Virus record (IMG/VR): IMGVR_UViG_3300031669_000001
Coordinates: 126,001-190,000 of that record
Source of the DNA: a virus
DNA: 64,000 nt
Reading direction: 5' to 3' (one strand)
Below are positions 4,301 through 57,524 of the stretch, in pieces. The notes below the pieces were generated by a model that was not told the DNA's origin, did no database searches, and was given only the letters and a program-made list of their open reading frames with translations. Numbering within the stretch: the first letter of the stretch is position 1; each line of letters opens with the position of its first letter. The position numbers and the translations under genes were made by a program.

Positions 4301-5098
4301 ATGACAAATCCACTATTAGCAAAGATCAAACTACCAGGACGAATTTTCCAATTACCGTCTAAAGGCATATTTTACACAGAAGGGGTGTTAGCCGATCATA
4401 TAAAAGACGGTGAAATCGAAGTAAGACCGCTCTCTGCATTTGCAGAGATGAAGTTGAGATCACCTGACATGCTGTTCAGTGGACGGGCAGTCAGGGAAAT
4501 CTGTCTAGAGTGTATACCTGACATTCTGAAACCTGAAAGTCTAGTGTCAAAGGATGTAGATGCAATTTTTTGTTTTTTAAGAATAGTCACCTATGGTAGC
4601 ACAATGGATATTAAATCGATCCATGATTGCTCTAGCAGAGAAGTTCAATCTTATAAAGTGAACATTGAAGATATTATCATGAAGGCAAACAACAAGATTC
4701 TAGACCACATTGACGTTTTGTATTCTGTAACGCTTTCAAATGGTCAAGAAGTAAAACTGAAGCCTATTACGTTCCAAGATGCAATTGACATGTCCCATCT
4801 TGAATATGAAGTAGAGAAGAAATTGATTGATGGGATCACCGATCAGGAAGCTATCGAAAAATCTTTAGTTCATGACATCATGTCTGTGATAGAATCTGTT
4901 GATGGAATTACAGATCAAACAATGATCGAAGAATGGGCTAGAAGTCTTCAGCGTAAATTCTTCGACGAGATCATAGAGAAAGCTCAAGCTGCTAGTGAAT
5001 GGGGTTTCAATTTAACTGTAGAACTAACATGCAAGCAGTGTGAAAAAATCTATCAACACAATCTTGAATTGGATCCAATAAATTTTTTCTCCGGGTGA
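4301..5098 (+). CDS. 26: Baseplate hub subunit, gp26-like (T4_baseplate family)
   Basis: 265 residues. The N-terminus LPGRIFQLPSKGIFY and the following LADHIKDGEIEVRPLSAFAEMKLRSPDMLFSGRA pattern are characteristic of the T4 gp26 baseplate-hub family, which binds the hub during baseplate assembly. The C-terminus has a C-x2-C pair (LTCKQCEKIYQ). At 265 residues it is a little longer than T4 gp26 (208). Its stop overlaps the next start as GTGA, which suggests coupled translation. Confidence 0.85.
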   Translation: MTNPLLAKIKLPGRIFQLPSKGIFYTEGVLADHIKDGEIEVRPLSAFAEMKLRSPDMLFSGRAVREICLECIPDILKPESLVSKDVDAIFCFLRIVTYGSTMDIKSIHDCSSREVQSYKVNIEDIIMKANNKILDHIDVLYSVTLSNGQEVKLKPITFQDAIDMSHLEYEVEKKLIDGITDQEAIEKSLVHDIMSVIESVDGITDQTMIEEWARSLQRKFFDEIIEKAQAASEWGFNLTVELTCKQCEKIYQHNLELDPINFFSG

Positions 5099-5331
5099 TC
5101 GGTACACATAATTCGGAGACCATTTCCTCTGTGATCTCCACGTTCACCCGACAAAACGAGGCATTGCTTGATTCTATAAACCAGTTGATGTACTACTATA
5201 GAGGATCGTTGCTGAGAGATGATGCTTGGGCGTTGAGCTATCTGGAACGAGAGAAAATGGTCTCGTTCCTAAATGACAGATTCAAGGATGCGAAGGATAT
5301 GATGAAGAACAGAATTCCAGTGTTCTTATGA
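5095..5331 (+). CDS. Small protein coupled to gp26-like gene
   Basis: 78 residues, GTG start overlapping the upstream stop. Central motif YYYRGSLLRDDAWALSYLERE followed by MMKNRIPVFL at the end. This tyrosine/arginine-rich pattern followed by a helix recurs, as I recall, in small proteins after gp26 in T4-type phages. It is probably a baseplate-hub or chaperone component. It ends two bases from the converging gene at 5333, and no hairpin separates them. Confidence 0.65.
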   Translation: MIGTHNSETISSVISTFTRQNEALLDSINQLMYYYRGSLLRDDAWALSYLEREKMVSFLNDRFKDAKDMMKNRIPVFL

Positions 5332-14378: not shown

Positions 14379-14514
14379 TTAATCTTTCTTCGTGGGTATC
14401 ACCTGCGTTAGTAAAATCAGATGATCATATTAACATAAAACTCGTAGAATAGTAATTTTCACGAGTTGCTATTAGTTCACGGATCATAAATAGATATTTA
14501 AGATAGGTAAACGT
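14379..14514. other. Divergent intergenic region gp55 / nucleotidyltransferase
   Basis: 136 bases with no gene. On the plus strand it carries a late promoter (14485-14492). On the minus strand, towards gp55, a TATGAT -10-like element lies around 14430, consistent with earlier transcription of gp55. No hairpin terminator was seen. Confidence 0.4.
14485..14492 (+). promoter_or_regulatory. Late promoter CATAAATA
   Basis: CATAAATAGAT, one base from the T4 late consensus, 22 bases before the ATG at 14515. It opens the main plus-strand structural block. Confidence 0.65.
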
Positions 14515-15147
14515 ATGAAACTTAGTCAAATTTTTGAAGCAAGCGATTCAAAAAGGCTTGTAGTCGTTTTTGGTGGTCGATTTCAACCGTTCCATCGTGG
14601 ACATTATGAAGCTTATAAGTGGCTGTGCAAAAAGTTTGGTGAAGAGAACGTCTGGATCGCCACTTCGAACAAGACAAATTTTAACGCAGCTAATGGTGAA
14701 GTTTCTCCATTTACGTTCAAGGAAAAGAAAGAGATCATCGTTTCACTTTATGGCATAAATCAAAGAAGAATCATCCAATGTAAGAATCCTGCGTTCAAAC
14801 CGAGTGAGATATTTGACCTTTACAAAGGTTATCCTATTATTTATATCACCGCTGTAGGTAAGAAAGATGAGGAGCGTTATCGCACAGGTACATTCTTCAA
14901 ACCTCTACCTCTGCCATTCGTTTTAAAAGATGCTGACGCACTCGCCACTCTTGATGATGATGTAGGATATTATACAGAAGTCCCAATGGTTATCAAGGAC
15001 ATCTCAGGATCTCAGGTTAGAGCTGAATTGAAAGCTGCAAAAGGCGATGATCGTGAGAAGCTGTTTAAGAAGTTTTTCGGCAAGTACGATTCAATCATCG
15101 ATGCACTTGTCATTGCTAAGCTTAAAGACGTTAAGGAAATAGAGTGA
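14515..15147 (+). CDS. Nucleotidyltransferase (cytidylyltransferase / NMNAT-like) with putative capsid-targeting leader
   Basis: 210 residues. The HxGH-type motif is GGRFQPFHRGH (20-30) and the second signature is ISGSQVR (162-168), both defining the nucleotidylyltransferase family that makes NAD, CDP-sugars or CoA precursors. The substrate cannot be read directly; GRFxPxHxGH with ISGxxVR is common in NMN adenylyltransferase-like proteins. The N-terminus MKLSQIFEAS contains I-F-E-A, fitting the T4 gp21 protease consensus (L/I-x-E before a small residue). It is late-expressed as the first gene of the structural block and overlaps the next start by four bases. Confidence 0.8.
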   Translation: MKLSQIFEASDSKRLVVVFGGRFQPFHRGHYEAYKWLCKKFGEENVWIATSNKTNFNAANGEVSPFTFKEKKEIIVSLYGINQRRIIQCKNPAFKPSEIFDLYKGYPIIYITAVGKKDEERYRTGTFFKPLPLPFVLKDADALATLDDDVGYYTEVPMVIKDISGSQVRAELKAAKGDDREKLFKKFFGKYDSIIDALVIAKLKDVKEIE

Positions 15148-16268
15148 GCGTACCAGATTTCAACGATCCATTTAATTCGTTCTACGATCAGTTCTCGATT
15201 CACGAGGCAGACTTTAGTCTGCCTACTCACTTCAATCGGTACGTGCCAGATAATCAAGGTGATTATCAATGTGTAAACGTTATAGTTCCTAGCATCAGCA
15301 AAGGAGCTATTTCCTGGACGATAGGTGGTAAGTGGATTACGATTGGAATCTATAGAGATGAAGGTAGACCAGCTACACAGAGACCTGCACAAACTGGACT
15401 TACATGGTCAAGAGTTAATCGAACGATAACGATCACGGATCCTAATGGACATAAATTGCATGCTGGAGATACTGTTAACGTCAACAACATAAATTTACCA
15501 CTTGTTGACGTTCCAGTTACAATCATCGATCCTAATACTTTTACCGTTCAGGGCTTTATAACAGGTGCATCCTCTGGTTCTACGGCATCCTATCAAGATA
15601 ACTTTGTCACAGACTTTTACGAAAATTACAGAGTGTTCAGATTACTTCCATCGTTCAAGTTGATTCCAATTTCTTTGGTTCTTCAGATCTTTGATCAAAC
15701 AAAACCTGTTCCAGCAGTAGCTCAACCGACTCTGTACAGCGTGACTGCAGGCAAAATGGTTACCGTACCGGTCGGGAATAATGCTGACTTCAATTATCAA
15801 TTACCAACTGCCACCCAGTCTAGCAAAGATTTGTTACCACTTCTTCGTCGATTTGGTCAAGTCTATGATTCAACTGGCCAACCATTAGAACTGACTTACA
15901 TGAGCAATGGTTATCCAATCTCAATTAACAATGTTGATTCGTCTTACAAGAATCAACAGATATTTTACAACGTTCCAGTCAACCAAATATCAGACCCATT
16001 CATATATGCTTATGATTATTATGGTCTTCTTATGAATGACGCTTCACGTGCACCAACCTATTCTACTTCTAATGTTGTGATAAATTCATTTGCAGTTGAT
16101 GTAAATAATATCATGGTTAATCCAGCTACCGGATATGTCAGCACGATAAATGACTTCTATGGCAACCTTGCCATTGGAGTTCAAACAAACAATGCATTAG
16201 TTGTAAGAAAGCAGATTTTGCCGTTAACGCTAGATGCGTTTAACTTGCCAGTTAAAGTGCCTGTATGA
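15144..16268 (+). CDS. Virion structural protein, unknown
   Basis: 374 residues, rich in Asn, Thr, Val, Pro and Tyr, typical of beta-rich tail or baseplate proteins. An internal stretch (about 88-155) resembles a beta-sandwich insert (TITDPNGHKLHAGDTVNVNN ... NTFTVQGFITGASSGS). No motif for a named T4 gene was recognised. GTG/ATGA-type coupling to the nucleotidyltransferase and location before the tail-tube cap-like, gp53-like and gp5-like genes suggest a baseplate or tail role. Confidence 0.6.
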   Translation: MSVPDFNDPFNSFYDQFSIHEADFSLPTHFNRYVPDNQGDYQCVNVIVPSISKGAISWTIGGKWITIGIYRDEGRPATQRPAQTGLTWSRVNRTITITDPNGHKLHAGDTVNVNNINLPLVDVPVTIIDPNTFTVQGFITGASSGSTASYQDNFVTDFYENYRVFRLLPSFKLIPISLVLQIFDQTKPVPAVAQPTLYSVTAGKMVTVPVGNNADFNYQLPTATQSSKDLLPLLRRFGQVYDSTGQPLELTYMSNGYPISINNVDSSYKNQQIFYNVPVNQISDPFIYAYDYYGLLMNDASRAPTYSTSNVVINSFAVDVNNIMVNPATGYVSTINDFYGNLAIGVQTNNALVVRKQILPLTLDAFNLPVKVPV

Positions 16269-16278
16269 GGAGAACGTT

Positions 16279-17232
16279 ATGAGTTATAAAGTAACTATCG
16301 TGAGTGGAAAAGATGCTGTTTGGTTCGAAGCCTCTGCGCCGATAACAGAAAGCAGAAGTGCAAATTATACAGGTCACGACATTATTCACTTGCCAACAGA
16401 TATTTGGGCTTATAAGAATACTACAGCTCGTTCATTCCAAATAACAGCGAAGATTGTATCAAGAAATGCCGATGAAGCAAAAGCAAATTCTCGTTATCTA
16501 GATTTGATAAGAAGCTGGGTTTTACCAGATTTTGGTAACTCTGGAGCTACACCACCAATCGTAAAATTGTCAGCTTTTTATAACACAAACATTGATAAAG
16601 TTCCATGCATTATCAAATCATATTCTTTTGGTTATCCAGAAGATGTAGATTGGATTTATGCAGGAGCAGAATTGAACGCTGGAACTGGAAGGAATAAAAA
16701 GGTCGGTTCAAGCGCGATGCCTGTCATCATGTCTATAACTGTTGATTTAAGTGAAGCTTACACCCCTGCACAGATAACAGCAAGATACTGGAAGATGAGT
16801 CTTTCAAAAGGTGGTGGGTTTGTTTTAGGCGGAGCAAATGATGATGTAACGTCATCTGGCGGAGGTAAGCAACAGATAGGTGAAGGAACTCTTACACCAA
16901 ACATGATTGACTTGACAGGAGATTCTAGTTTTACAGGCATAGCATCATCTAAATATTCTCACGTAAAATCTTCAGTGAGCGTTGTAGCAAATGGAAATAA
17001 TGCATCTACTTATGGAATAAAAAATAGTCAATCCATAACTAAAGTTGTTGCAGCTACTACACCAACACCAACTACACAAACTACACCTATTTCAACCGGC
17101 ATATTTCCGACAGGATTGTCAGCAACAACACAAAATAATGCATTAAGCACCTTTGGTAGAAATGCATTACCGTCTCAAGCTCCTTCATTCATTACAGACA
17201 CCTTCTTGGCAGTTGGAGAGGGAGGTGCATAA
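16279..17232 (+). CDS. Baseplate tail-tube-cap-like protein (gp48/gp54-type), tentative
   Basis: 317 residues from MSYKVTIVSGKDAVWFEAS; this ATG follows AGGAGAACGTT, so the upstream in-frame codon is not used. The sequence PCIIKSYSFGYPEDVDWI followed by MPVIMSITVDLSEAYTPAQ, a beta-sheet pattern with a conserved proline, recalls the tail-tube-like domain of T4 gp48/gp54. The last 110 residues are Ser/Thr/Asn-rich, low complexity and probably flexible. Position directly before gp53 supports a baseplate inner-tube role. Confidence 0.5.
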   Translation: MSYKVTIVSGKDAVWFEASAPITESRSANYTGHDIIHLPTDIWAYKNTTARSFQITAKIVSRNADEAKANSRYLDLIRSWVLPDFGNSGATPPIVKLSAFYNTNIDKVPCIIKSYSFGYPEDVDWIYAGAELNAGTGRNKKVGSSAMPVIMSITVDLSEAYTPAQITARYWKMSLSKGGGFVLGGANDDVTSSGGGKQQIGEGTLTPNMIDLTGDSSFTGIASSKYSHVKSSVSVVANGNNASTYGIKNSQSITKVVAATTPTPTTQTTPISTGIFPTGLSATTQNNALSTFGRNALPSQAPSFITDTFLAVGEGGA

Positions 17233-21612: not shown

Positions 21613-22012
21613 ATGTTTGCGTTTAAGACTTTTCTATTTGAGAGCATGCTGCTTGAGGACAAGGTAGACTTCATCCTCAAGACGCTTGCTGACTGGTCTG
21701 AGAAGAACCTCCAGTGGTTGGTCAACATGTACATCAAGGGACAGTTCTCTCTTGAGGATAAGGCTCGCATCCTCAACGTCATCACCGACTTCAACAAGGA
21801 GAAGAAGGGTCTCGAGAAGAAGGATCTCAACCAGTACAAGACGATCGATGAGATCGAAACAACCGTCAAGCAACACACCGAGGAGAACCAGAAGAGATCT
21901 CATCGACAAGGACCCAGACCTTCTCAAGAAGTTCGAGAAGCCGACGAACAAGATGAAGCAGCAAGCTCAGTGGGCAACCGATCGCATCAAGCGTCAGAGA
22001 AGAGGCTTCTGA
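21613..22012 (+). pseudogene. Small leader-bearing protein with a +1 frame change near 21890
   Basis: Starts MFAFKTFLFESMLLEDK after TAGGAGTAAAGA. L-F-E-S fits the prohead-protease consensus. The zero frame is convincing to about residue 94 (VKQHTEENQ). The +1 frame then continues as RDLIDKDPDLLKKFEKPTN ... QQAQWATDRIKRQRRGF. That frame has the same biased codon use and stops at 22012 in a TGATG overlap with the next gene. Without a shift the zero frame runs unnaturally (SHRQGPRPSQE) into the next protein as a 302-residue fusion. Explanations are a single-base indel (real or an assembly error) or +1 frameshifting. A shifted product would have 132 residues. Function unknown. Confidence 0.6.
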
Positions 22013-22521
22013 TGAAGCTGAACGAGATCCTCAACGAAGGACTGCTTGACAAGATCAAGCAAAAGCTGGGTGAGTTCAAGGGAAAGGTGATGTCATCGGT
22101 TGAGTCACTGCTCCAACACTTCAAGAAGCACCCAGATGAGAGGCTGACGACGATCGAGACGTTCAAGGTCAAGGAGATCTCAAAGTCCTACGAGTCTCGG
22201 GTTGACACCGGAGCAGCGATCTGTGCGTTTCATGCTGAGGATATCGAAATTGATAAGGACAAAGGGGAAGTTTCATTTAAGCATGCAGGGACAACTTACA
22301 AGTTAAAGATGACTAGAATCAGAAACACGAAGAGCGCTAGCGGCGTAACTGATAGACCAGTTGTAAAGCTATCTTATGTTTGGAACAAAAAGACTTACAG
22401 TGGTATAGATACAAGTCTCATAGATCGCTCAAAGTTGAAGTTTAAGATCTTGGTAGGACGTAACTTAATAGCTGAGTTAAAGCTTCCAGTCTACGTTGCA
22501 GACAATGACGAGAAAGAATAA
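22012..22521 (+). CDS. RimB-type (COG4067) aspartyl-protease-like protein with capsid-targeting-like leader
   Basis: 169 residues. The ATG lies 8 bases after GAGG in a TGATG overlap. N-terminus MKLNEILNEG contains L-N-E-G, a gp21-type cleavage pattern. The C-terminal domain (about 50-169) has the retropepsin-like signature SRVDTGAAICAFHAEDI (DTG 65-67, His74). Later comes DRPVVKLSYV and LKFKILVGRNLI, the order seen in RimB proteins. RimB homologues cleave glutamate tails added by RimK. A related domain ends the RimK-like protein at 47506-49002. GC content drops sharply near 22240, inside the gene. Its late position suggests a virion component; substrate unknown. Confidence 0.75.
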   Translation: MKLNEILNEGLLDKIKQKLGEFKGKVMSSVESLLQHFKKHPDERLTTIETFKVKEISKSYESRVDTGAAICAFHAEDIEIDKDKGEVSFKHAGTTYKLKMTRIRNTKSASGVTDRPVVKLSYVWNKKTYSGIDTSLIDRSKLKFKILVGRNLIAELKLPVYVADNDEKE

Positions 22522-47073: not shown

Positions 47074-47297
47074 TCACTTCACTCTACCTAACTTATCCGT
47101 CAATTTTTGAAGAGCCTTGCTGATGATCTGATAGTTGGCATAGATCTTGTTAGCATGTTTTAAGCGCATAGTTGGATCTCTCATTGTTTTGAGGATTGAA
47201 AGCCCACGATGAACGCCAGCTAACATCTTCATGATGTCATCGATGCCTGCAAATTTGCAGGGACGACAGTTTCTTCGTTGAGTTCAGAGAATTTCAT
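47074..47297 (-). CDS. Small leader-bearing paralog read across a -1 frame shift
   Basis: ATG overlaps the previous stop (ATGA). In the zero frame it stops after 22 residues (MKFSELNEETVVPANLQASM). A -1 shift at A_AAT_TTG (near 47250) instead gives 74 residues continuing AGIDDIMKMLAGVHRGLSIL ... ANYQIISKALQKLTDKL. That product aligns along its whole length with the neighbour at 47294-47509: DDIMKMLAGVHRGLSIL matches DEILKMFDAARRGISLL, and DPTMRLKHANKIYAN matches DPVQRKKHASAIFKN. The heptamer is the centre of the palindrome CCTGCAAATTTGCAGG. Either programmed frameshifting or a disabling/assembly indel. L-N-E fits the prohead-protease pattern. Confidence 0.6.
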
Positions 47298-47509
47298 TCT
47301 TCCACAGGCTCCGTAAGTCTCATCAACATACCTTTGATCTTATTCAGATTTTTGAAGATCGCTGACGCATGCTTCTTACGTTGAACAGGATCTTTGATCC
47401 TGTTTAAAAGAGAGATACCTCTACGAGCTGCATCAAACATCTTAAGGATCTCGTCGACTGTCACATCTTTTGGAATCTCTGTCGTTTCCATAATGTCATT
47501 AAATTTCAT
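47294..47509 (-). CDS. Small leader-bearing helical protein
   Basis: 71 residues, MKFNDIMETTEIPKDVTVDE, then a helical hairpin (ILKMFDAARRGISLLNRIKD, KKHASAIFKNLNKIKGMLMRL). I-M-E-T matches a gp21-type cut site. It overlaps both neighbours by ATGA. Not recognised. Paralogous to the gene at 47074-47297, so the pair arose by tandem duplication. Possibly an abundant internal head protein or a small injected effector. Confidence 0.7.
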   Translation of the reverse strand: MKFNDIMETTEIPKDVTVDEILKMFDAARRGISLLNRIKDPVQRKKHASAIFKNLNKIKGMLMRLTEPVEE

Positions 47510-49002
47510 TCCTCATCCACCTCTTCAATATCGTAGATCTCACTTTCAGGGCGATCTCCGTGGTTTGTGTTATCGTCATCTCTAGGAACTATAACTGGAA
47601 GACCTAAAGCTTGTAGCGCATTTCTACCAATCAATACTTCATACTTCATGCTTGATCGATTATTTAAGGTGAATTCGATTTGGTTGAGTCTAATGTCGCG
47701 CATCGTTACGTCAAGCTTGACGACAGGTCTGCGAACAGATTCACCGATGCTTGCGTGGCGGATCTTAACCGTCTTGAAGACGGGCACCTTGTAAGTAACG
47801 TCTCCGCGTGTAAACTTTACCCAGTTGCCTTCAACATCAACGCTGTCAACGTGAAGAGAGCAATATTTTGCACCTGTATCGATACGAGCTTCTACCTCGC
47901 CTGTAATGCGATTGATAGACACCATCTCTGTTTCACCAATCGTGTCTTGAGATATTGTAGGTTGAGTTGTAGGTGCTTCATCCTTAACAGGCTCAACAAC
48001 AGATTCATCTCCATTTACTACTGGAGCTTCGGGTGCTTTTTCTGCTGAAGTTCCAGCGACGTATTGAATTATCATCTTTGCTAGATCTCTGTCAGGCCAA
48101 TTCAATTGGATGTTCTCAAGACCGGGCGATCCGTTAACCTCAAGTACGATGATCTCTTTATCTTCTGTGATGAGGTAGTCAATAGCGCAGAAGTTACAAC
48201 CAAACAGTTCAACGATGCGTCTAGCGATCGCCATCTCATCTTCAGACGGTTCATATTTTTCTGTTTCAGAACCTAGGTGAGAGTTTGTTCTAAATTCATC
48301 CTTTGTCTTTGGCTGACCACGCAAGTTTGCAGCTAACATTTCATTGCCGATCATGATGATTCGAGCAGAACGTTCATGCTTGCAGAATGCCTGAAGCATA
48401 AAGTCAAGTCCTTCTTTAGACAAAAGCTGAGCGACTGATACCAAGGATGAACGACTGTCAACCTTCATGACACCAATGCCGTGTGTACCGCGAAGAGTTT
48501 TGATAACGAATGGATAGGTTATCTTTTTTGCTGCCTCAAGATTGTTGACTACGGTTTCTATCTCTTCTAAGCCTTGAATCATGACGCTGTATGGAGTCTT
48601 GATGCCAGCAGAGTTAAGTAAGATTTGAGTCATCAACTTGTCATTGCAGAGCTCCATGCTTTCTGGACTGTTGACCATGTAAGCACCTTGCTTCTCAAGT
48701 CTCTTGAGAATTCCAAGCTTGATGAGTACGTGATATTCATTGAGACGTGGAATGATTGCTGTCTCTCTGTCAACGACTACGGGTACTAACTTTCTTTCCT
48801 CGGCGTCAAGCTTCTCAACGATGTAAACTGAGCTTAACAATTCAAAATTTTCTGGTTGACTTCCTTGAAGATCTTCTACCAAAACAGCTTTCTTGATGTC
48901 TAGGATTTGAACTTCAATGCCGAGCACAGCGCCAGCTTCTTTCAATTTAACTGGAACAAAATTCTTAGGTTCAGCCGTAACGATAATAACTTTCTTGATC
49001 AT
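47506..49002 (-). CDS. RimK-like ATP-grasp ligase fused to RimB-like protease domain
   Basis: 498 residues. About 1-317 is a RimK-type ATP-grasp enzyme: NSPESMELCNDKLMTQ, YPFVIKTLRGTHGIGVMKV with Lys168, GCNFCAIDYLI and IIVLEVNGSPGLE (Glu288, Asn290). RimK adds glutamates to the ribosomal protein S6 C-terminus. A Pro/Glu/Ala-rich linker (about 318-358) joins to a COG4067/RimB-type aspartyl-protease-like domain: EARIDTGAKYCSLHVDSV (DTG 375-377), RRPVVKLDV and MKYEVLIGRNAL. Ligase and protease of opposite effect in one chain is unusual. Possible roles are a polyglutamate tag on a host or virion protein. The start overlaps the upstream stop by four bases. Confidence 0.88.
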   Translation of the reverse strand: MIKKVIIVTAEPKNFVPVKLKEAGAVLGIEVQILDIKKAVLVEDLQGSQPENFELLSSVYIVEKLDAEERKLVPVVVDRETAIIPRLNEYHVLIKLGILKRLEKQGAYMVNSPESMELCNDKLMTQILLNSAGIKTPYSVMIQGLEEIETVVNNLEAAKKITYPFVIKTLRGTHGIGVMKVDSRSSLVSVAQLLSKEGLDFMLQAFCKHERSARIIMIGNEMLAANLRGQPKTKDEFRTNSHLGSETEKYEPSEDEMAIARRIVELFGCNFCAIDYLITEDKEIIVLEVNGSPGLENIQLNWPDRDLAKMIIQYVAGTSAEKAPEAPVVNGDESVVEPVKDEAPTTQPTISQDTIGETEMVSINRITGEVEARIDTGAKYCSLHVDSVDVEGNWVKFTRGDVTYKVPVFKTVKIRHASIGESVRRPVVKLDVTMRDIRLNQIEFTLNNRSSMKYEVLIGRNALQALGLPVIVPRDDDNTNHGDRPESEIYDIEEVDEE

Positions 49003-49829
49003 AGTAAACCCCGTTTATTCATCTCGATGTATGCAGATCTTTTTATCAATAAGCAAGGCTTGTCGATCCATATTTCATGATCGCCTGTGCCTTTTGAGAA
49101 TGATTCTATTCTGATAGAGTGAAAACCATTTGCTTCTGGTTCTAACTTTTCCTCTATGTAACGCTCAGTGCTTACAACGTGTCTAGCCAAAAGATCTTTC
49201 ATGATCTTTGCCTGTTCTACAGATAGTGATTCTCCAGAAGAAAGATTCTTTTCTAAAACTTTTCTGTCTGACTCTAAAACTTTATCGATCTGTCCAAGAG
49301 CCCTCTTAAATTCACCAAAAGTTTTTGGCTCGTGCTTCTTGATCTTTGTGTCTGTGATTTGAGCTAAACCTTCTTGAACATTTTCTAACCATTCAATGAA
49401 GGTTTTGTTATCGACCCTATCGAAGCCTAAGCTCTTCTCAATGTCTTTGAAACTTCTATAGAAGGAGGGACCTGGAGCGATACCAATCCTAGTTCCATCA
49501 AATGGTATCATGACGTAAACGTCATCACCGCCGAAAGTGCGATCATAATTTGTGTAAGCTTTGATAAAGCGTGATCTACTAGGCATCTTTCCCCATGAAG
49601 GAATTTCCTTGATCATCTTGTCAACCCAGAACTTTGAACGTTCTTCCTTTATTTCAGGAGTGACCATCATCATGTCAGGACCAGAATCTTGCCTGAAGAA
49701 TGGATTTTTCTTGGCGACAACGTAAGAATTTTTAGCTTTACTTTTTAACAGCTCAAGGAACTTACTCTCAGTAAGTTCCTTGCGATGCTCTATTGGTGCA
49801 GCTTCTTCAATAAGAGACCTTAATTTCAC
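48999..49829 (-). CDS. Leader-bearing protein, possible ADP-ribosyltransferase
   Basis: 276 residues. N-terminus MKLRSLIEEA resembles T4 Alt/IP capsid-targeting leaders (MKTYQEFIAEA) and holds I-E-E-A. Downstream are KNPFFRQDSG (Arg46), PSWGKMPSRSRFIKAYTNYD (Ser84/Ser86), DDVYVMIPFDGTRIGIAPGP and near the end GTGDHEIWIDKPCLLI (Glu252). The order Arg...Ser...Glu, with PSW..xPxRSxx and a V-x-x-P-F-D-G strand, recalls R-S-E type ADP-ribosyltransferase-like proteins of large myophages. This is a pattern judgement, not a demonstrated homology. T4 Alt is a packaged ART, so the combination is suggestive. Confidence 0.5.
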   Translation of the reverse strand: MKLRSLIEEAAPIEHRKELTESKFLELLKSKAKNSYVVAKKNPFFRQDSGPDMMMVTPEIKEERSKFWVDKMIKEIPSWGKMPSRSRFIKAYTNYDRTFGGDDVYVMIPFDGTRIGIAPGPSFYRSFKDIEKSLGFDRVDNKTFIEWLENVQEGLAQITDTKIKKHEPKTFGEFKRALGQIDKVLESDRKVLEKNLSSGESLSVEQAKIMKDLLARHVVSTERYIEEKLEPEANGFHSIRIESFSKGTGDHEIWIDKPCLLIKRSAYIEMNKRGLL

Positions 49830-50351: not shown

Positions 50352-51026
50352 TCACAATTTGTCATAAAATTCACAAGCCCTTTCTGATAATTTCAACAGC
50401 AATTCGTCATCCAAGGTCTTTCTAAAGATCATCGGCAGGTGATTTTCGACGCCCATCATGATGACCAGCTTTTCAATATTTGTTCCAAACATTTCATTGT
50501 GAGCTGTCGCGTAGAATGCAGCTTGAATCCAATAGTCACCAATTTCATCGGCAGATTTAACTCTACTCGAAGTCTTGTAATCGACTATCGCAAGGTTCCC
50601 CTGATATTCTGCTACTAAATCACATCTACCAGCTATGCCTAAAACGTCAGAATAGAGTACTACCTCTTGTCCGAATACTTTATTTATCTTCCTGACCTCA
50701 AGGCGTAGACTACTGAAGATTTTAACGTGTTCAGGTGGAAATGTTTCAAGCTGTGGATCTTCATTTCGAAGGTACCGTTCAAGCATTAAGTGAGTATTTG
50801 TTCCGCGATTACAAGCTGCTGCAGAAATTTCATTTGCTTTCTTATTACCAACTCGTGCCTTCCAAGCGTTCAAGACGTCCTTCTTTTCTGTCTGGAGCGT
50901 ATGTCCGAGCACAGTGGTGATGCTTGGATAGTAACGATCGCCAGGAATTTGATAGACCCTTTTCCCCTCAACGCTGAGAGTTTCAGCTTCTTGATAGTTA
51001 AAGGTGTCTAACGCAAGTTCAATCAT
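50352..51026 (-). CDS. Cas4/RecB-like PD-(D/E)XK exonuclease
   Basis: 224 residues. PYPSITTVLG-like start (YYPSITTVLGH, about 32-42). Nuclease motifs are RGTNTHLMLERYL (His79), IAGRCDLVAEYQGNLAIVDYKTSS (Asp136, Asp149-x-Lys151) and a downstream Gln/Tyr motif YWIQAAFYATA. This is the RecB-nuclease type shared by Cas4 and phage exonucleases, although the four-cysteine iron-sulphur ligands of Cas4 are absent. It is expressed in the late operon, which is unusual for a replication enzyme. A role in DNA maturation, packaging clean-up or host DNA attack after injection is possible. Confidence 0.8.
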   Translation of the reverse strand: MIELALDTFNYQEAETLSVEGKRVYQIPGDRYYPSITTVLGHTLQTEKKDVLNAWKARVGNKKANEISAAACNRGTNTHLMLERYLRNEDPQLETFPPEHVKIFSSLRLEVRKINKVFGQEVVLYSDVLGIAGRCDLVAEYQGNLAIVDYKTSSRVKSADEIGDYWIQAAFYATAHNEMFGTNIEKLVIMMGVENHLPMIFRKTLDDELLLKLSERACEFYDKL

Positions 51027-52372
51027 TCTTTATCGTCGCTCGACTCAATTTTCCTGATACCTTTTACCTTGATGTCGTCTTCATTCTTATCGTGCCACTT
51101 TTCATATTCAGCTTGATTCTTGAAAGTTTTACGCCATGGAATTGATTTAGGACCTTTTACGCCGTATGCTTCAACTCTTCCTTTGATTGTCTCTTTCACA
51201 TCTTTTGATTCTTTGACTTCTTCATCATCAGCCGCAGGCTTTCTTTCTGGCGCTGCTGTACCGATCAATTCTTTGACGTCAGTTGAGAGCATAAGCACAC
51301 CATCTGGAGAGCCTACAGCCTTAACTAGAATGCTAGAACCGCGCGGTGAGAACACATACTTTTTAGCTGGATCTTCTGTTTCATCACGAACTACTGTGAT
51401 CGAGTGATTGTTGATTCCCTTGATCAGCTTTTCTGTTTCTTCTGAACCAAGAGTAATGGTAAGTCCCTTTGAGCTGATTGTTAAATTTTCTTTGTCAGAA
51501 GAGAATGTCCAGTCTGCATGCTCCTCATTGATGTTGATCTTCATTTCTTCTTTCACCCCTTTGTCAAGTTCTGTTTTTGGTGTTTCATGTCCCGCTTTTT
51601 CCGTTGCTGCATTCTGTTCTGCTTGCTTTTCAAAGTCACTCGCTCTACGAATGAACATCTTGAGAGCACTTTTCATCGTTGCGTTCTTCTGCATGGCTTC
51701 TGCAGCTGACTTGATTCCCTTGATTATTTCATTTCTATTTGCATTACGAGCCAATGCGATCTCTGGTACGCCAAGATCAATGATGGCGTGATAAACCATA
51801 AGTTGAGTAGGTGTTGTAAAGCGACTTTCAATGCTTGTCGTACTTTCAAGAAGTTCAAGCGTAACAAGTTCGCCGTAGCTCAACGATTCACTTCCTTGAA
51901 ACTGACGATCGGGAATATCTTCAACCTCTTCTTTGCCGTGTTTGGGTCCATATACACGTTGATCGAGTGAAGATGAACCATCATCTTGTTCATCTTCAGG
52001 ATTTTTTTCATCTCCACCTTCTTCTGGCCATTCAACATCAACGATTTCATACTCCTTCGATAGCTCATTTAGAACTTCTTCGATGTCATCTATCTCACCA
52101 AGCTTCGTAGCTAATGCCTTTTCAAAAGCTTCTGCTTGTTCTGCATTCACATAGACTTTAACTATCTTACCATCATCTGTCTCTAGACCGAAGGTAACAG
52201 TATCTACCTCGTCAAATTTGACAGAGCGATCAAGCTTATTGATTACAGCAGTTTCATCGGCGGCAAGATTGTCAGATTCATCAGATGCGTTAGGAACATT
52301 TGTATTTGTTCCACCGTCGCCCTCCAATAATTTAAAGTCTTTAGCGATTTTAGTTAGGGAATTATACAGCAT
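51023..52372 (-). CDS. Large acidic protein with leader, unknown
   Basis: 449 residues from MLYNSLTKIAKDFKLLEG; the ATG follows AGGAGACAAAAG. L-L-E-G fits prohead-protease cleavage. Three parts are visible: an acidic first third, a helical middle (about 170-265, QLMVYHAIIDLGVPEIALARN...) and a C-terminal beta-rich half with two similar stretches (DWTFSSDKENLTISSKGLTITLGSEE and KYVFSPRGSSILVKAVGS). No known family was recognised. The acidity and leader fit a scaffold-core or internal head protein. Confidence 0.6.
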   Translation of the reverse strand: MLYNSLTKIAKDFKLLEGDGGTNTNVPNASDESDNLAADETAVINKLDRSVKFDEVDTVTFGLETDDGKIVKVYVNAEQAEAFEKALATKLGEIDDIEEVLNELSKEYEIVDVEWPEEGGDEKNPEDEQDDGSSSLDQRVYGPKHGKEEVEDIPDRQFQGSESLSYGELVTLELLESTTSIESRFTTPTQLMVYHAIIDLGVPEIALARNANRNEIIKGIKSAAEAMQKNATMKSALKMFIRRASDFEKQAEQNAATEKAGHETPKTELDKGVKEEMKININEEHADWTFSSDKENLTISSKGLTITLGSEETEKLIKGINNHSITVVRDETEDPAKKYVFSPRGSSILVKAVGSPDGVLMLSTDVKELIGTAAPERKPAADDEEVKESKDVKETIKGRVEAYGVKGPKSIPWRKTFKNQAEYEKWHDKNEDDIKVKGIRKIESSDDKE

Positions 52373-53648
52373 CTTTTGTCTCCTCATCTTTGTTCACTTC
52401 TTGTTTCTTTGGTTTCATCCATTCAGGTTCTTTGAATCTTTTTGGTGAAAAGTCCTTCACCTTCTTCTTGATCAACTTACCATTTCTGATGGTGAATCGA
52501 CCCTTCTTCGTAATTTGATTTGGTGCCATCTTATTCAGCTTGTACAATCCACCCAAAGCGTTGGAAATATCTTGCGCTGTATTTGGATGGCCAGATTGAG
52601 AGTTGATGTTTGGACCACTAGGATTCAAGATAGCATTGCCACCTGTGGCAACTGCTCCAGTTCCTACTGCTCCTCCATCTGCAGTCTCGTGAATCGATCC
52701 AGTTCTTGCAAATCCAATGACTCTTTGGGAAACGCTACCTAATCTATTCACCATCACTAAGTTAGACAGCCTTCTAAGGTGAGGGATAAGCTTTGATCCA
52801 GGATCACTTTGCATCATAAACATCAACGCGTCATTGATAGCTTTCTGTTTAGCGGAGATGTTGATCGAGTCCCACTTATAAAGAGTACGAAGAATGCTGA
52901 CGAAGTAACTGCTCTGTAGACCAAATGTATGTTGTAATAAAAGAACATTAGCAATCACATCATGCCAATTTACAGCTTCAGGTGTTGTAATTGGAACTTG
53001 CATGGTTTTTTGAACTCTTGAAGAAGATACTCTTGAAGACATCTTTGCCAAAAGCTTTGCATCTTCAGCTTTCATTCTCTGCTTGATTTCAGAGTCATTT
53101 GAATAAAATAAGATGCGACCCCAGAAATTAAGATCACTCATGCTCGATGAGAATTTTGTAAGCTTTGAATGATTGTGATCGTTAATCAACATCAAACCCT
53201 TTATATCTTGAACCTTTAACATCACCAACGCCGCAAGATAATTTGCAAAGAAGGCATTTCTAACATCAACATAAGTGATATTGTTTATCTTGTTTAGGTT
53301 AATTCCCTCTTCAAGAGAAGCTAAGAATTTGTGTTCTTTAACGTTTAAAGTTCCGACTTTAGCACCTTTACCTATCTCTATCTCTACCTGTTCTTTTCCA
53401 CGATTATCTTTTGGAGCGTTCATTCTTGCTGAAGAAACGTAGTGCGCGTTCGGTTCAGTCATCAGCTTTCCGTCTCTTAATTGATTGACGGATACTCTGT
53501 CTGGGTTTAATTGATTATCCATAGCGTACTGATGCGCTGCAGCTCTAAGCTCATTTTGTGTAAAAGGCGTCTTCTTTGAAACTGAAAGTATCTTCTTTTG
53601 AGAACCTTTCAGACCAACTTCTATTTGAAGAGTATATCTGTCTGTCAT
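52362..53648 (-). CDS. Unknown protein with basic C-terminus
   Basis: 428 residues. N-terminal alpha/beta part (MTDRYTLQIEVGLKGSQKKI...) and a central helical part (about 110-310) with VRNAFFANYLAALVMLKVQD and WHDVIANVLLLQHTFGLQSS. A Gly/Asn/Ala-rich linker is followed by a strongly basic tail (ITKKGRFTIRNGKLIKKKVKDF). Not recognised, and it has no leader. Its start overlaps the ligase-like stop by four bases. Confidence 0.6.
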   Translation of the reverse strand: MTDRYTLQIEVGLKGSQKKILSVSKKTPFTQNELRAAAHQYAMDNQLNPDRVSVNQLRDGKLMTEPNAHYVSSARMNAPKDNRGKEQVEIEIGKGAKVGTLNVKEHKFLASLEEGINLNKINNITYVDVRNAFFANYLAALVMLKVQDIKGLMLINDHNHSKLTKFSSSMSDLNFWGRILFYSNDSEIKQRMKAEDAKLLAKMSSRVSSSRVQKTMQVPITTPEAVNWHDVIANVLLLQHTFGLQSSYFVSILRTLYKWDSINISAKQKAINDALMFMMQSDPGSKLIPHLRRLSNLVMVNRLGSVSQRVIGFARTGSIHETADGGAVGTGAVATGGNAILNPSGPNINSQSGHPNTAQDISNALGGLYKLNKMAPNQITKKGRFTIRNGKLIKKKVKDFSPKRFKEPEWMKPKKQEVNKDEETKDAV

Positions 53649-55150
53649 TTTCCTTCTCCGAACATCGTATCTAATTGCTTCTTGAAGAAAATTTCAACAA
53701 GATCGTACATGTCTGTTGCTCTACGAACGTCGTTTAACATCTCTATCAACGATCTACGGGCTTCAGCGAAGACCATGAGAGTGCGCCTTTTGATTTCTTG
53801 TGTGTACTTGATGGTTTGACCATTCTTTAATTCTAAGTGATAATCATCTGCACCGGATTTAAACGCGTCAAGCGCCTCCTCAACATCATCTATAGCTGCA
53901 ATGTAGATCGCTTGAATCTTGCGTCTAACGCTAGCAAATTGGAGTTGATTTAAACTTTTCGTAACCTTGTTGATCGTGTCTTCTCTGTCATCACCTTTAA
54001 ACTTTTCAAGAACCTTCTTTGTCTGTGAAGGCATGTCTGCGTTTTCAAGACCGAATAATTGAATTGACCTGAGTCTAGCTTCACCGACTATACCACCTCT
54101 AGCTTCGATCGGCATGTTAGGATCTGCTGTAGTGATTCTTCCAGAGATTGCTTTTCTTGCTTGGTAATTAAATTTGTTGATCTCAAGAAATACATCCTTA
54201 TCAACGATCTTGAACTTTTCACCAGTCTTAGGATCTGTAAAGATGATGCCTTCTATTCCCTTGTAAACGCCTTCATCATCGCTAGTCATTCCACGAAGAG
54301 ATGGTTTTTGCTTGTAGATCAATTCTAGCAGCTTTTTCTTGATAGGAAGTTTGAAGTCAGTCATGATGTTTTCTTCAACTTCTTTCTTAGCGTCGGAAAG
54401 ATCTCTACTACGATCTTTCATCAACTCAAAGTTAGTAAGGTCTCTTCCCTCAGCTCTAGCGGTTTCATTTTCTTTCTTCAAGAAAGCTTTTAGCTCTCCG
54501 AGTTCCTTAACGAAATTTACCTTCTTGATCTCAGACGATGGAACTACGTCAGATACAGTGAACTTCCACTCGGATACGTTGGGGGTTCTAACGATTGTTA
54601 TTCCATCTGTTGTATCCGAGAAGACAGTTCTGACTGTGAAGGTCTTATCACCAATCATCTTCATGAGAGTTGCAAGCTTCTTTTGATCAGGTTCAACCGA
54701 TGGATCATCGCCTGGAAGCATCTCTAGCAACGCGATGTAGTTGAGATTGTCTTTACCGTAGAACACAGTATTAGGTTGAGGGCCATAGATAATTTCCAGA
54801 TTGATCGATTCACCTGGAACTAAGACTTCTAGAAAGTAACCTTCTGCTTTTTCAAGAACAGCATGAGCAGCTCTGAACCCATCGTACGCTGAATTTTTAG
54901 GAAAGTCTGATTCTTTGTAGAATCTGCGTCCACCCTTCTGTTCACGAGATGTAAACAGTTCACCATCTTCATCTAGGCCAACTCGCAAGTTAGCACCATC
55001 CAGCTTTTGAACGGCTTCTAATTCATGTAATTTTTCAATGACGCGAAGAAAAGCCTCGATGTCAAGATCTTCAAGATGAGCGATCCCGTAATCGGATGTT
55101 CCTTCTGCTAGAAAGAATTTTGAGGAGTAACGTTTAAAATTGAGCTTCAT
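53645..55150 (-). CDS. RNA/DNA ligase-like covalent nucleotidyltransferase with capsid-targeting-like leader
   Basis: 501 residues. Nucleotidyltransferase motifs in order: AVQKLDGANLRVGLD (Lys49 of KxDG, motif I), INLEIIYGPQ (Glu119, motif III), KGIEGIIFTD (motif IV, about 300) and GEKFKIVDKDVF (motif V, about 312). This is the ligase / mRNA-capping nucleotidyltransferase superfamily. The C-terminal 170 residues are helical and unlike known ligase OB domains. N-terminus MKLNFKRYSSKFFLAEG carries L-A-E-G, a gp21-type cut site. First gene behind a late promoter. A late, perhaps packaged ligase may repair host RNA or DNA breaks at infection onset; the real substrate is unknown. Confidence 0.8.
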   Translation of the reverse strand: MKLNFKRYSSKFFLAEGTSDYGIAHLEDLDIEAFLRVIEKLHELEAVQKLDGANLRVGLDEDGELFTSREQKGGRRFYKESDFPKNSAYDGFRAAHAVLEKAEGYFLEVLVPGESINLEIIYGPQPNTVFYGKDNLNYIALLEMLPGDDPSVEPDQKKLATLMKMIGDKTFTVRTVFSDTTDGITIVRTPNVSEWKFTVSDVVPSSEIKKVNFVKELGELKAFLKKENETARAEGRDLTNFELMKDRSRDLSDAKKEVEENIMTDFKLPIKKKLLELIYKQKPSLRGMTSDDEGVYKGIEGIIFTDPKTGEKFKIVDKDVFLEINKFNYQARKAISGRITTADPNMPIEARGGIVGEARLRSIQLFGLENADMPSQTKKVLEKFKGDDREDTINKVTKSLNQLQFASVRRKIQAIYIAAIDDVEEALDAFKSGADDYHLELKNGQTIKYTQEIKRRTLMVFAEARRSLIEMLNDVRRATDMYDLVEIFFKKQLDTMFGEGK

Positions 55151-55177: not shown

Positions 55178-55185
55178 TATTTATG
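55178..55185 (-). promoter_or_regulatory. Late promoter CATAAATA
   Basis: Minus strand CATAAATAGAGATAG, 27 bases before the ATG at 55150. It drives the whole operon down to the terminator at 47004. Confidence 0.65.
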
Positions 55186-55206: not shown

Positions 55207-55518
55207 CTAGATATGCTTTAACGCAGCTGGTGGTGCAGCCGGGGTGTCGAATGCTTTGAACCTATTTTCAAGCTCAGACAGCAATCCACGGATGGCTGCT
55301 TCATACTTGAAAACTTCTTCTCTGGCTTCACCTATTTTGACTGTCCACTTTTGATGGATGTTTACGAGCTCTCTGATGTCACTAGGTAGATCCTTTGCAA
55401 CATACGTTTTGTTGTTGAAAGTGATTGTTGGTTCTGGTTGGACAGCTTCAGCAACCTTCTGCTTTTTAACTGCAGGCTTTTTAACTACTGGCTTTTCAAC
55501 TTGTGTTTCTTTTTTCAT
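55207..55518 (-). CDS. Small Lys/Val-rich protein
   Basis: 103 residues. A repetitive start (VEKPVVKKPAVKKQK) is followed by TITFNNKTYVAKDLPSDIRELVNIHQKW and a coiled-coil-like end. The pattern I-x-[FY]-[ND]-[NG]-K-x-Y-x-x-x-D-L-[PS] then a helix recurs in small phage proteins related to DUF6447. No function is known. It lies 22 bases downstream of the helicase, so it belongs to the replication run and not the late operon. Confidence 0.55.
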   Translation of the reverse strand: MKKETQVEKPVVKKPAVKKQKVAEAVQPEPTITFNNKTYVAKDLPSDIRELVNIHQKWTVKIGEAREEVFKYEAAIRGLLSELENRFKAFDTPAAPPAALKHI

Positions 55519-55539: not shown

Positions 55540-56916
55540 TTAAACTTGAAACGGTAAATTATTTATATCGAGTTTAGGTGACTTTGGGCCTGATGGTTTT
55601 GGAGCAGTTGCATTTTCTGGGCTTTGAATGTCACCGTCACCTTTTTTCTTGATATAAGAAGAGATAGACTTTGATAATCTTGCAGGACTGTTTTCCTCTT
55701 CAAGATTTTCCAGACAGAGGTTCTTCTGATTAAATTTGAGCATGTAGAAGTTTCCTACACCATTTGAAGAACGAGTCTTCAATAGCTTGAACATCATCTC
55801 TCCACGAGCCTTCATCTGTTCATTTTGGATGATGGCTACCAGGTTATCTGTCGTGTTGATCTTGGAGATACCACCTGCAATGTTAGCTTGACCGATGTCT
55901 TGAATGTTCTCAACTTGAAGAGCACTTCTGTTCAACTGTGAAGCTGTGATCATAATGAGGTTGAATTCATTGGCGATAGAACGAAGCTCTTCAGAAATGA
56001 ATTTGTCACGAATAAAGGTGTTCTCTGCAGAGATAGATTGAACCGAACACATCAGATCCAAGTAATCAACGACGATGAAGTCAGGCAAGTAACCATTGAC
56101 GATCTCGAACTCTTTCAGGTACGCCCTGATGTGATTTGCATTTGTCGAGGATTCTGGCATCCGCTTGATGTGAAGAGCACCGTGATCTGCTTTTTGCTGA
56201 TTGATCTTGACTGTTGCTTCTGTGATATTCCTCATCAATTCCATTTGTTGGAGCCCAGAGAACATCGAGTCAAATCGTTTTGCCACAACTTCTTCAGCGA
56301 GCTCCAACGTAATGAACACACCATTGAGGTGCTGCTTCATCAAGTTCTTGGCTAGGTTACCCATCGTAAGAGACTTACCGACACCAGGCGGTGCCGCGAA
56401 GATGATCATCTCTTTCCGATTCAATCCTCCACCGAGATACTCATCGAGCTTGAACCAACCAGTGGAGACGGCATTGTTGATAGTCAGAAGTCTAAGACGA
56501 GCTTCTGGATCAAAGAAGTAATCCAGACCGATGTTACGAGACAAACCGACCGTGATTGCATCCTTGATGAGTTTCTCTATCTCACCGTACTTTCCTTCAT
56601 CAAGAAGTTTTGGTGAAGCGTAGATCGCTTCTTCGATAGCTTTTTCACGGCAGAATCGTTCTAGCTGATTCTCCGCGTAGGTTATCTCTTGACGAGTCAG
56701 AGATGGTCTAAGCTCTACCTTCTGACCCGTCTCAGCAGAGATTTGATCAATTGTAGGTGGAGTCTTATACTCATCAAAATAATTCTTGACGAACGTGACT
56801 ACCTTCTTTATCTTATCATCGAAGTACCGGGTTTGTAGAATTGGTGATACCTTCACAAACAGCTCTTGAGAACTGACGAGGTAGGACACCAACAAGCGTT
56901 GTTTTTCTAATTCCAT
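55540..56916 (-). CDS. 41: Replicative DNA helicase gp41 (DnaB-like)
   Basis: 458 residues versus 475 in T4. RecA-type core: STGWFKLDEYLGGGLNRKEMIIFAAPPGVGKSLT (Walker A APPGVGKS, 175-182), LELAEEVVAKRFDS, DFIVVDYLDLM (Walker B), LIMITASQLNRSAL and QANIAGGISKINTTDNLVAI. The N-terminal domain is helical as in other DnaB-type enzymes. It unwinds the fork with the gp61 primase and clamp. The start overlaps the macro-domain gene by one base. Confidence 0.93.
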   Translation of the reverse strand: MELEKQRLLVSYLVSSQELFVKVSPILQTRYFDDKIKKVVTFVKNYFDEYKTPPTIDQISAETGQKVELRPSLTRQEITYAENQLERFCREKAIEEAIYASPKLLDEGKYGEIEKLIKDAITVGLSRNIGLDYFFDPEARLRLLTINNAVSTGWFKLDEYLGGGLNRKEMIIFAAPPGVGKSLTMGNLAKNLMKQHLNGVFITLELAEEVVAKRFDSMFSGLQQMELMRNITEATVKINQQKADHGALHIKRMPESSTNANHIRAYLKEFEIVNGYLPDFIVVDYLDLMCSVQSISAENTFIRDKFISEELRSIANEFNLIMITASQLNRSALQVENIQDIGQANIAGGISKINTTDNLVAIIQNEQMKARGEMMFKLLKTRSSNGVGNFYMLKFNQKNLCLENLEEENSPARLSKSISSYIKKKGDGDIQSPENATAPKPSGPKSPKLDINNLPFQV

Positions 56917-57524
56917 TATACGTTTCCAATTTGTTGTAGGTCTCTTGGTGGTTCTTTACATAGAGCCAAGTGACGTGATTGAGCTTCTTGCCAAGTTTTC
57001 GGTTCAGAATAATTGATGAAAACGTGGTCATAAGCTTGGCGCATTTGATGTGCGCAGATTCTTGGAGGTACTTTGCCGACTCCAGTTCCCAGACCAGAGA
57101 CGACTATGGATGAAATGTTAGGATTGCTTAATAGTTCATTGAAGATTGCAAGAGATGCCAGGTAGACATTCACAGAGTTGCTTCCCAAGATCATGGGCAC
57201 TCTCATGGTAGGTGCAGAGATTAGATAAGGCCAGCGCTCTGATAGAGTAGGTAGCGTCAAAACTTTACCGACTAAAAGTTCTTTTTCAGGAAGTTCGTCA
57301 ATCATCTCACGTAGTCTCTCCTGAACGTGCCAACCTAACACCATTGAAATGGAATAGTCTAAGCCTCCATCCATAAATCCAAAGCTGTTGGCGGGGCTTA
57401 CCATTGCATCTGCTGGATAATTGAAGATTGAATCACATTGAATCTCAACATTTTTGTAACCTTCAAATTCTATCTTCCATGCATCTATTAAGTCTGCGTT
57501 GAAGTCTGCCAATATAATTTTCAT
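56916..57524 (-). CDS. Macro-domain (ADP-ribose-binding) protein
   Basis: 202 residues. Macro-domain elements: an initial beta strand (KIILADFNADLIDAW), DAMVSPANSFGFMDGGLDYSIS (about 39-60) and SSIVVSGLGTGVGKVPP with the phosphate-binding loop. The set resembles macro domains that bind or hydrolyse ADP-ribose. The GLGTGVGKVPP loop differs from classical GxGxGxFG loops, with Lys in place of the usual aromatic. Lies between helicase and primase, with overlaps on both sides. Possible functions are removal of ADP-ribose from proteins or DNA, or sensing of NAD-derived signals. Confidence 0.82.
   Translation of the reverse strand: MKIILADFNADLIDAWKIEFEGYKNVEIQCDSIFNYPADAMVSPANSFGFMDGGLDYSISMVLGWHVQERLREMIDELPEKELLVGKVLTLPTLSERWPYLISAPTMRVPMILGSNSVNVYLASLAIFNELLSNPNISSIVVSGLGTGVGKVPPRICAHQMRQAYDHVFINYSEPKTWQEAQSRHLALCKEPPRDLQQIGNV

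Follow-up and report, generated by a model that had tools for sequence, protein, structure and literature searches.

Locus and gene neighbourhood

The window, that is, the whole stretch of DNA that was analysed, comprises 64,000 nucleotides, namely positions 126001-190000 of a virus record that is 345,069 bases long. The open reading frame listing of the window gives a ligase-like gene at 53645-55150 on the minus strand, exactly where an earlier reading of the letters (hereafter the sequence-only reading) had placed it; the gene starts with ATG and encodes 501 amino acids. On its 5′ side lie, in order, a primase gene, a gene for a macro-domain protein, a DnaB-type helicase gene and a small gene. 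On its 3′ side the minus strand continues with a partner gene, a gene for a third protein, a PD-(D/E)XK exonuclease gene and others, mostly overlapping or abutting. Since the upstream neighbours are primase and helicase, a point that the sequence-only reading does not raise, the ligase-like gene starts a late unit directly downstream of the replication genes. The macro-domain protein gene (56916-57524, minus strand) sits between those for primase and helicase.

Leader-type sequences are also found on both genes directly downstream. The partner gene (52362-53648, minus strand) encodes 428 amino acids and holds FLASLEE/G, where the slash marks the putative cleavage site; in six relatives the N-terminus of its product reads MNFLATLEE/S or similar. 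In one contig (L017:5749-8118) the ligase and the downstream partner form a single 790-residue protein. The predicted model of the partner protein is poor (pTM 0.48), and a fold search with it gave no match. The third gene (51023-52387, minus strand, likely start 52372) carries the leader MLYNSLTKIAKDFKLLE/G. Further members of the unit, all on the minus strand, are the Cas4-like PD-(D/E)XK exonuclease gene (50352-51026), a leader-bearing gene (48999-49829, MKLRSLIEEA) and a small leader-bearing gene (47294-47509, MKFNDIMET). At the end of the unit, a gene at 47506-49002 (minus strand) encodes a RimK-type ATP-grasp fused to a putative zinc-protease domain.

Relatives of the ligase-like protein occur in PA5oct-like Pseudomonas phages, Sinorhizobium phage Phosso, Agrobacterium phage Atu_ph07 and IMG/VR contigs, and helicase and primase genes adjoin the ligase-like gene in all well-annotated relatives. 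PA5oct gp256, Phosso 446 and Atu_ph07 gp066 share with the window gene the orthologous core and the position after the DnaB-type helicase but, unlike it, have neither leader nor late motif. Just downstream of the Atu_ph07 homologue, about eight consecutive genes of ~255 codons each (gp055-gp062; L002, 15685-21874) may be tandem paralogues.

Late promoter

A T4-like late-promoter motif, CATAAATA, was found 35 nt upstream of the ATG (55178-55185, minus strand). A second one, TATAAATA, lies at the 3′ end of the helicase gene (55560-55567, minus strand), upstream of the small gene at 55207-55518. In the whole genome NATAAATA occurs at 74 sites on both strands and stands 10-75 nt upstream of 48 genes; stretches at this distance account for 5% of the bases, which amounts to a ~13-fold enrichment. 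The genes so marked include those for the tail sheath, a tail-tube-like protein and the gp21-type protease. Within one stretch of PA5oct, each of the six motif-bearing genes is annotated as encoding a virion protein (p 0.007). The motif is kept in 11/11 leader-bearing orthologues examined, 12-49 nt upstream, and none was found upstream of the leaderless orthologues of PA5oct (gp256), Phosso and Atu_ph07. Several orthologues have a hairpin between the late promoter and the upstream gene.

Taken together, this pattern argues that the ligase-like gene is very probably transcribed late, although transcripts of the replication genes upstream may also run on into it. The sequence-only reading had called the gene late, a property not visible to its author, and the motif at -35 supports this. 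Its premise that known phage RNA ligases are early enzymes turned out not to be absolute, given that T4 Rnl1 (gp63) additionally promotes tail-fibre attachment. The late regulon of this genome (G000:C1), with NATAAATA ~30-60 nt upstream, comprises tail, head and many unknown genes. Several of its genes, judged by eye, are homing-endonuclease-like.

Predicted catalytic domain

In the RNA ligase superfamily a KxDG lysine nucleophile is followed by motifs III, IV and V in order, and this is what the window protein contains. On the minus strand, motif I is KLDG with the predicted nucleophile K49 (54995-55006), motif Ia is TSRE with R69 (54941-54952), motif III is LEIIYG with E119 (54782-54799), motif IV is EGIIF with E300 (54239-54253) and motif V is KFKIVDK with K314 (54197-54217). 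Residues K49, D51, G52, E119, N127, Y131, E300, G301, K314 and F321 are invariant among 17 homologues, far beyond chance. The arginine of motif Ia is present in most, not all, homologues, and in the KxK of motif V the second lysine is invariant and the first (K312) variable.

The assignment to RNA ligases was yielded only by divergent members of the family and by fold comparison. The Pfam RNA_ligase model PF09414 is matched by 9/17 members (best 1.2e-6), the window sequence scoring 13.5 bits, below the curated cut-off of 27 bits; the sole member above it, a fused protein from G003, scores 28.7 bits. Scanned as a single sequence against Pfam and PHROG, the window protein gave nothing useful and no family above threshold, and profile searches against PDB sequences were of no more help. 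NCBIfam had no match for the family, PADLOC had none for the two members scanned, and the Rnl2-like and DNA ligases of the genome itself gave no significant score when compared by profile.

The AlphaFold model (mean pLDDT 83.6) reveals the expected strand order, with helices inserted ahead of motif IV and again in the C-terminal region (residues 318-501; 53648-54199, minus strand), where they span residues 318-497. At the C-terminus these helices take the place where an OB fold, a trait of DNA ligases and capping enzymes, was sought, and no sign of one was seen. A Foldseek search of the PDB gave T4 Rnl2 as the best match (2hvr, E 6.8e-4, probability 0.99), the leading matches being T4 Rnl2, an archaeal RNA ligase, Rnl1 and fungal tRNA ligases. 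The top viral fold matches include the PA5oct and Atu_ph07 homologues. Overall TM-scores are low because of the helical insert and the C-terminus. The sequence-only reading fared well here: its four core motifs (KLDG, EIIYG, EGIIF, KFKIVDK) are all present, its helical C-terminus reappears in the model, and the fold comparison with T4 Rnl1 and Rnl2 that it had proposed placed RNA ligases in the lead.

Both sequence and model thus indicate that the protein is a divergent nucleotidyltransferase of the RNA ligase superfamily, and it is likely to prove an active one. With T4 RNA ligase 2 and PF09414 it shares the motif order I-Ia-III-IIIa-IV-V and the nucleophilic lysine. In contrast to T4 RNA ligase 2, it has a long helical insert before motif IV, a different C-terminus, a first lysine of motif V that is not conserved, an N-terminal leader and a late promoter. 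Jumbo-phage RNA ligases have been reviewed as Rnl1, Rnl2 and RtcB types (PMC7824862).

N-terminal leader and probable head targeting

The N-terminus, MKLNFKRYSSKFFLAE (55103-55150, minus strand), resembles a prohead leader with predicted cleavage at E16/G17; residues 1-20 have pLDDT <50 in the model. The sequence-only reading had described a gp21-type leader, and as a pattern MKLNFKRYSSKFFLAE/G holds, the site [LM]xE/G being present in 10/10 distinct intact leaders. The leader residues before the site have a mean identity of 45%, vs. 57% in the body of the protein, yet [LM]xE/G recurs. Across the genome, the leader type MK...LxE[AGST] is found in 9/48 genes with the late motif and 10/467 without it (Fisher p ~1e-5, with a leader expression refined after examples had been inspected); a loose leader motif alone showed a weak association with late promoters (p 0.04). 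The MK...LxE[AGST] type also occurs on the major capsid protein and on other members of the ligase late unit, and the genome encodes a gp21-family protease (S77, PF03420, E 8e-28).

In T4, leaders of 10-19 residues target internal head proteins to the prohead core and are removed by gp21 (PMC9026906). T4 IPIII and Alt have a short N-terminal leader cut after Glu by the gp21-type protease, as predicted here (PMC9026906), and Alt is a packaged enzyme, as we propose for the ligase-like protein. Unlike the window phage, the T4 head proteins listed in that source include no ligase-type enzyme, and no report of a head-targeted ligase was found in the literature searched. Packaging of NAD/ADP-ribose enzymes in myovirus heads is widely proposed (PMC9503650).

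In the tree, the members with leader and late motif form one clade (support 97/97), which indicates that leader and late promoter arose once. The leaderless PA5oct gp256 is not among the proteins annotated from mass spectrometry, though many of its neighbours are; both for gp256 and for Atu_ph07 gp066, absence from virions is a matter of annotation. The two relatives with checkable virion lists, both leaderless (PA5oct gp256 and the S-SZBM1 DUF6267 protein), do not appear among the reported virion proteins, in keeping with a leader gained once together with the late promoter.

Late expression combined with a T4-style head-loading tag suggests that the ligase-like protein is probably packaged in the head and injected with the DNA. 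It is rather unlikely that the N-terminal segment is amphipathic by chance and that the enzyme acts, unpackaged, late in the infected cell: leaderless orthologues do exist, that of PA5oct with a weak sigma-70-like promoter match, but the conservation of the cleavage site, the like leader on the capsid protein and in genes of the same transcript, and the encoded gp21-type protease speak against it. The coincidence of late motif and LxE leader would offer a simple sequence rule for predicting injected proteins in this group of giant phages.

Proposed role and substrate

We regard it as reasonably probable that the gene encodes a late-expressed, prohead-targeted covalent nucleotidyltransferase of the RNA ligase superfamily. 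Transcription would start late from CATAAATA at 55185, as comparative evidence suggests. By analogy with T4, the 16-residue leader would bring the protein into the prohead core, where the gp21-type protease, whose gene is present, may cleave after LAE to leave a mature enzyme of ~485 amino acids (G17-K501). Packaging of the enzyme together with its operon partners would follow, and then ejection along with the DNA. In the new cell K49 would be charged with a nucleotide, most likely AMP, and the enzyme could seal 3′-OH/5′-phosphate ends, most likely of RNA cut by host defences, before phage gene expression. If the protein is in the head, repair of RNA or DNA ends would be available from time zero of infection and not after early transcription, which would change the view of how defences such as anticodon nucleases are beaten. 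The interpretation offered by the sequence-only reading is partly supported: the superfamily, the late motif, the leader with its conserved cleavage site and the matching gp21-family protease agree with it, while delivery with DNA to repair cleaved tRNA or genome nicks at entry stays a proposal.

Whether the substrate is RNA, rather than DNA or something else, we judge to be evenly balanced, and of the two nucleic acids RNA is the likelier. The genome (G000) encodes two further RNA-ligase-family proteins (4459-5142 and 108801-109898) and an ATP DNA ligase (15195-16631). With other RNA and DNA ligases encoded, the late leader-bearing copy is unlikely to be an ordinary repair ligase, and this inventory suits a separate job for it. 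We also abandoned the view that the protein stands in for a DNA ligase of the phage, as the genome encodes one. It seems improbable that the protein is a packaged sealer of DNA ends or nicks that completes or mends the phage genome, inside the head or on entry, together with the exonuclease of the late unit. That exonuclease and the adjacency of helicase and primase genes would suit such a sealer; against it stand the normal ATP DNA ligase, the RNA ligases as nearest folds and the modelled helices in place of the OB fold of DNA ligases.

DUF6267 and the cytidylyltransferase-like protein

In profile comparison the ligase-like family matched DUF6267 (PF19782), a family of cyanophage and Pelagibacter phage proteins, over motifs I to III with 96% probability and E 2.4e-9, and the family profile also picks up the Syn9 member in its motif IV/V region. 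The homology comes from profile-profile comparison only, PF19782 itself having no match in the phage's own genome. Members from cyanophages and HTVC008M share with the window protein the features HLED...K-x-DG...PNT(I/V)xY...EG...K(I/L)VD, and the DUF6267 gene lies downstream of a gp41-type helicase gene, a position that resembles that of the window gene. Unlike the window protein, the aligned members have another residue in place of the motif III glutamate; no late motif was found directly upstream of the DUF6267 gene. These profile matches indicate that DUF6267 (L077, L078, L083) is a diverged relative within the ligase superfamily, which ties this family of unknown function to it. One DUF6267 member has relatives in 471 phage records.

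A second leader-bearing protein of interest is cytidylyltransferase-like (14515-15147, plus strand), has the leader MKLSQIFEA and its own late motif at 14485. In Syn9 and S-SM1 the DUF6267 gene stands directly upstream of a cytidylyltransferase gene, and LR756508, an uncultured phage, has a homologue of the cytidylyltransferase-like gene of the window that is fused to a ligase-like domain. The cytidylyltransferase encoded beside DUF6267 in cyanophages has been detected in virions of S-SM1, S-SZBM1 and S-CREM2 (PMC3037559, PMC9146016, PMC10665884); the DUF6267 protein of S-SZBM1 is absent from the published virion list of that phage. The N-terminal domain fused in L019 had no match among the structural proteins of PA5oct.

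From the fusion and the gene order in these cyanophages one could argue that the enzyme works with the cytidylyltransferase-like (NMNAT-like) protein in a nucleotide- or NAD-linked transfer, for instance tagging an RNA end or a protein instead of joining ends. Matches of other leader-bearing or leader-like proteins to NUDIX and phosphoribosyltransferase models point the same way, but the two genes are far apart in the window phage, and we consider such a transfer improbable too. If the protein were a core or structural component of the prohead that uses a ligase fold and needs no catalysis, this would account for the leader, the late promoter and the L017 fusion to a partner that is itself likely a core protein, but such a role is quite unlikely given that K49, E119, E300 and K314 are invariant in 17/17.

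Returning to the packaged end-sealing enzyme, we consider only tentatively that it belongs to a head-loaded nucleotidyl-transfer kit, injected together, that undoes tRNA-cleaving or NAD-consuming defences before phage gene expression. The candidate members, namely the ligase-like enzyme, the cytidylyltransferase-like protein and several other enzymes, have a common leader type, and most have late promoters or lie in late units. If such a kit exists, the ligase/cytidylyltransferase pair would be an ancient module common to cyanophages and jumbo phages. Leader-like N-termini were also noted on four proteins elsewhere: a phosphoribosyltransferase (L038:6703-7509), a NUDIX protein (L044:13878-14276), a zinc-protease-like protein (window, 21613-22521) and a Sel1-repeat protein (L038:11868-12608).
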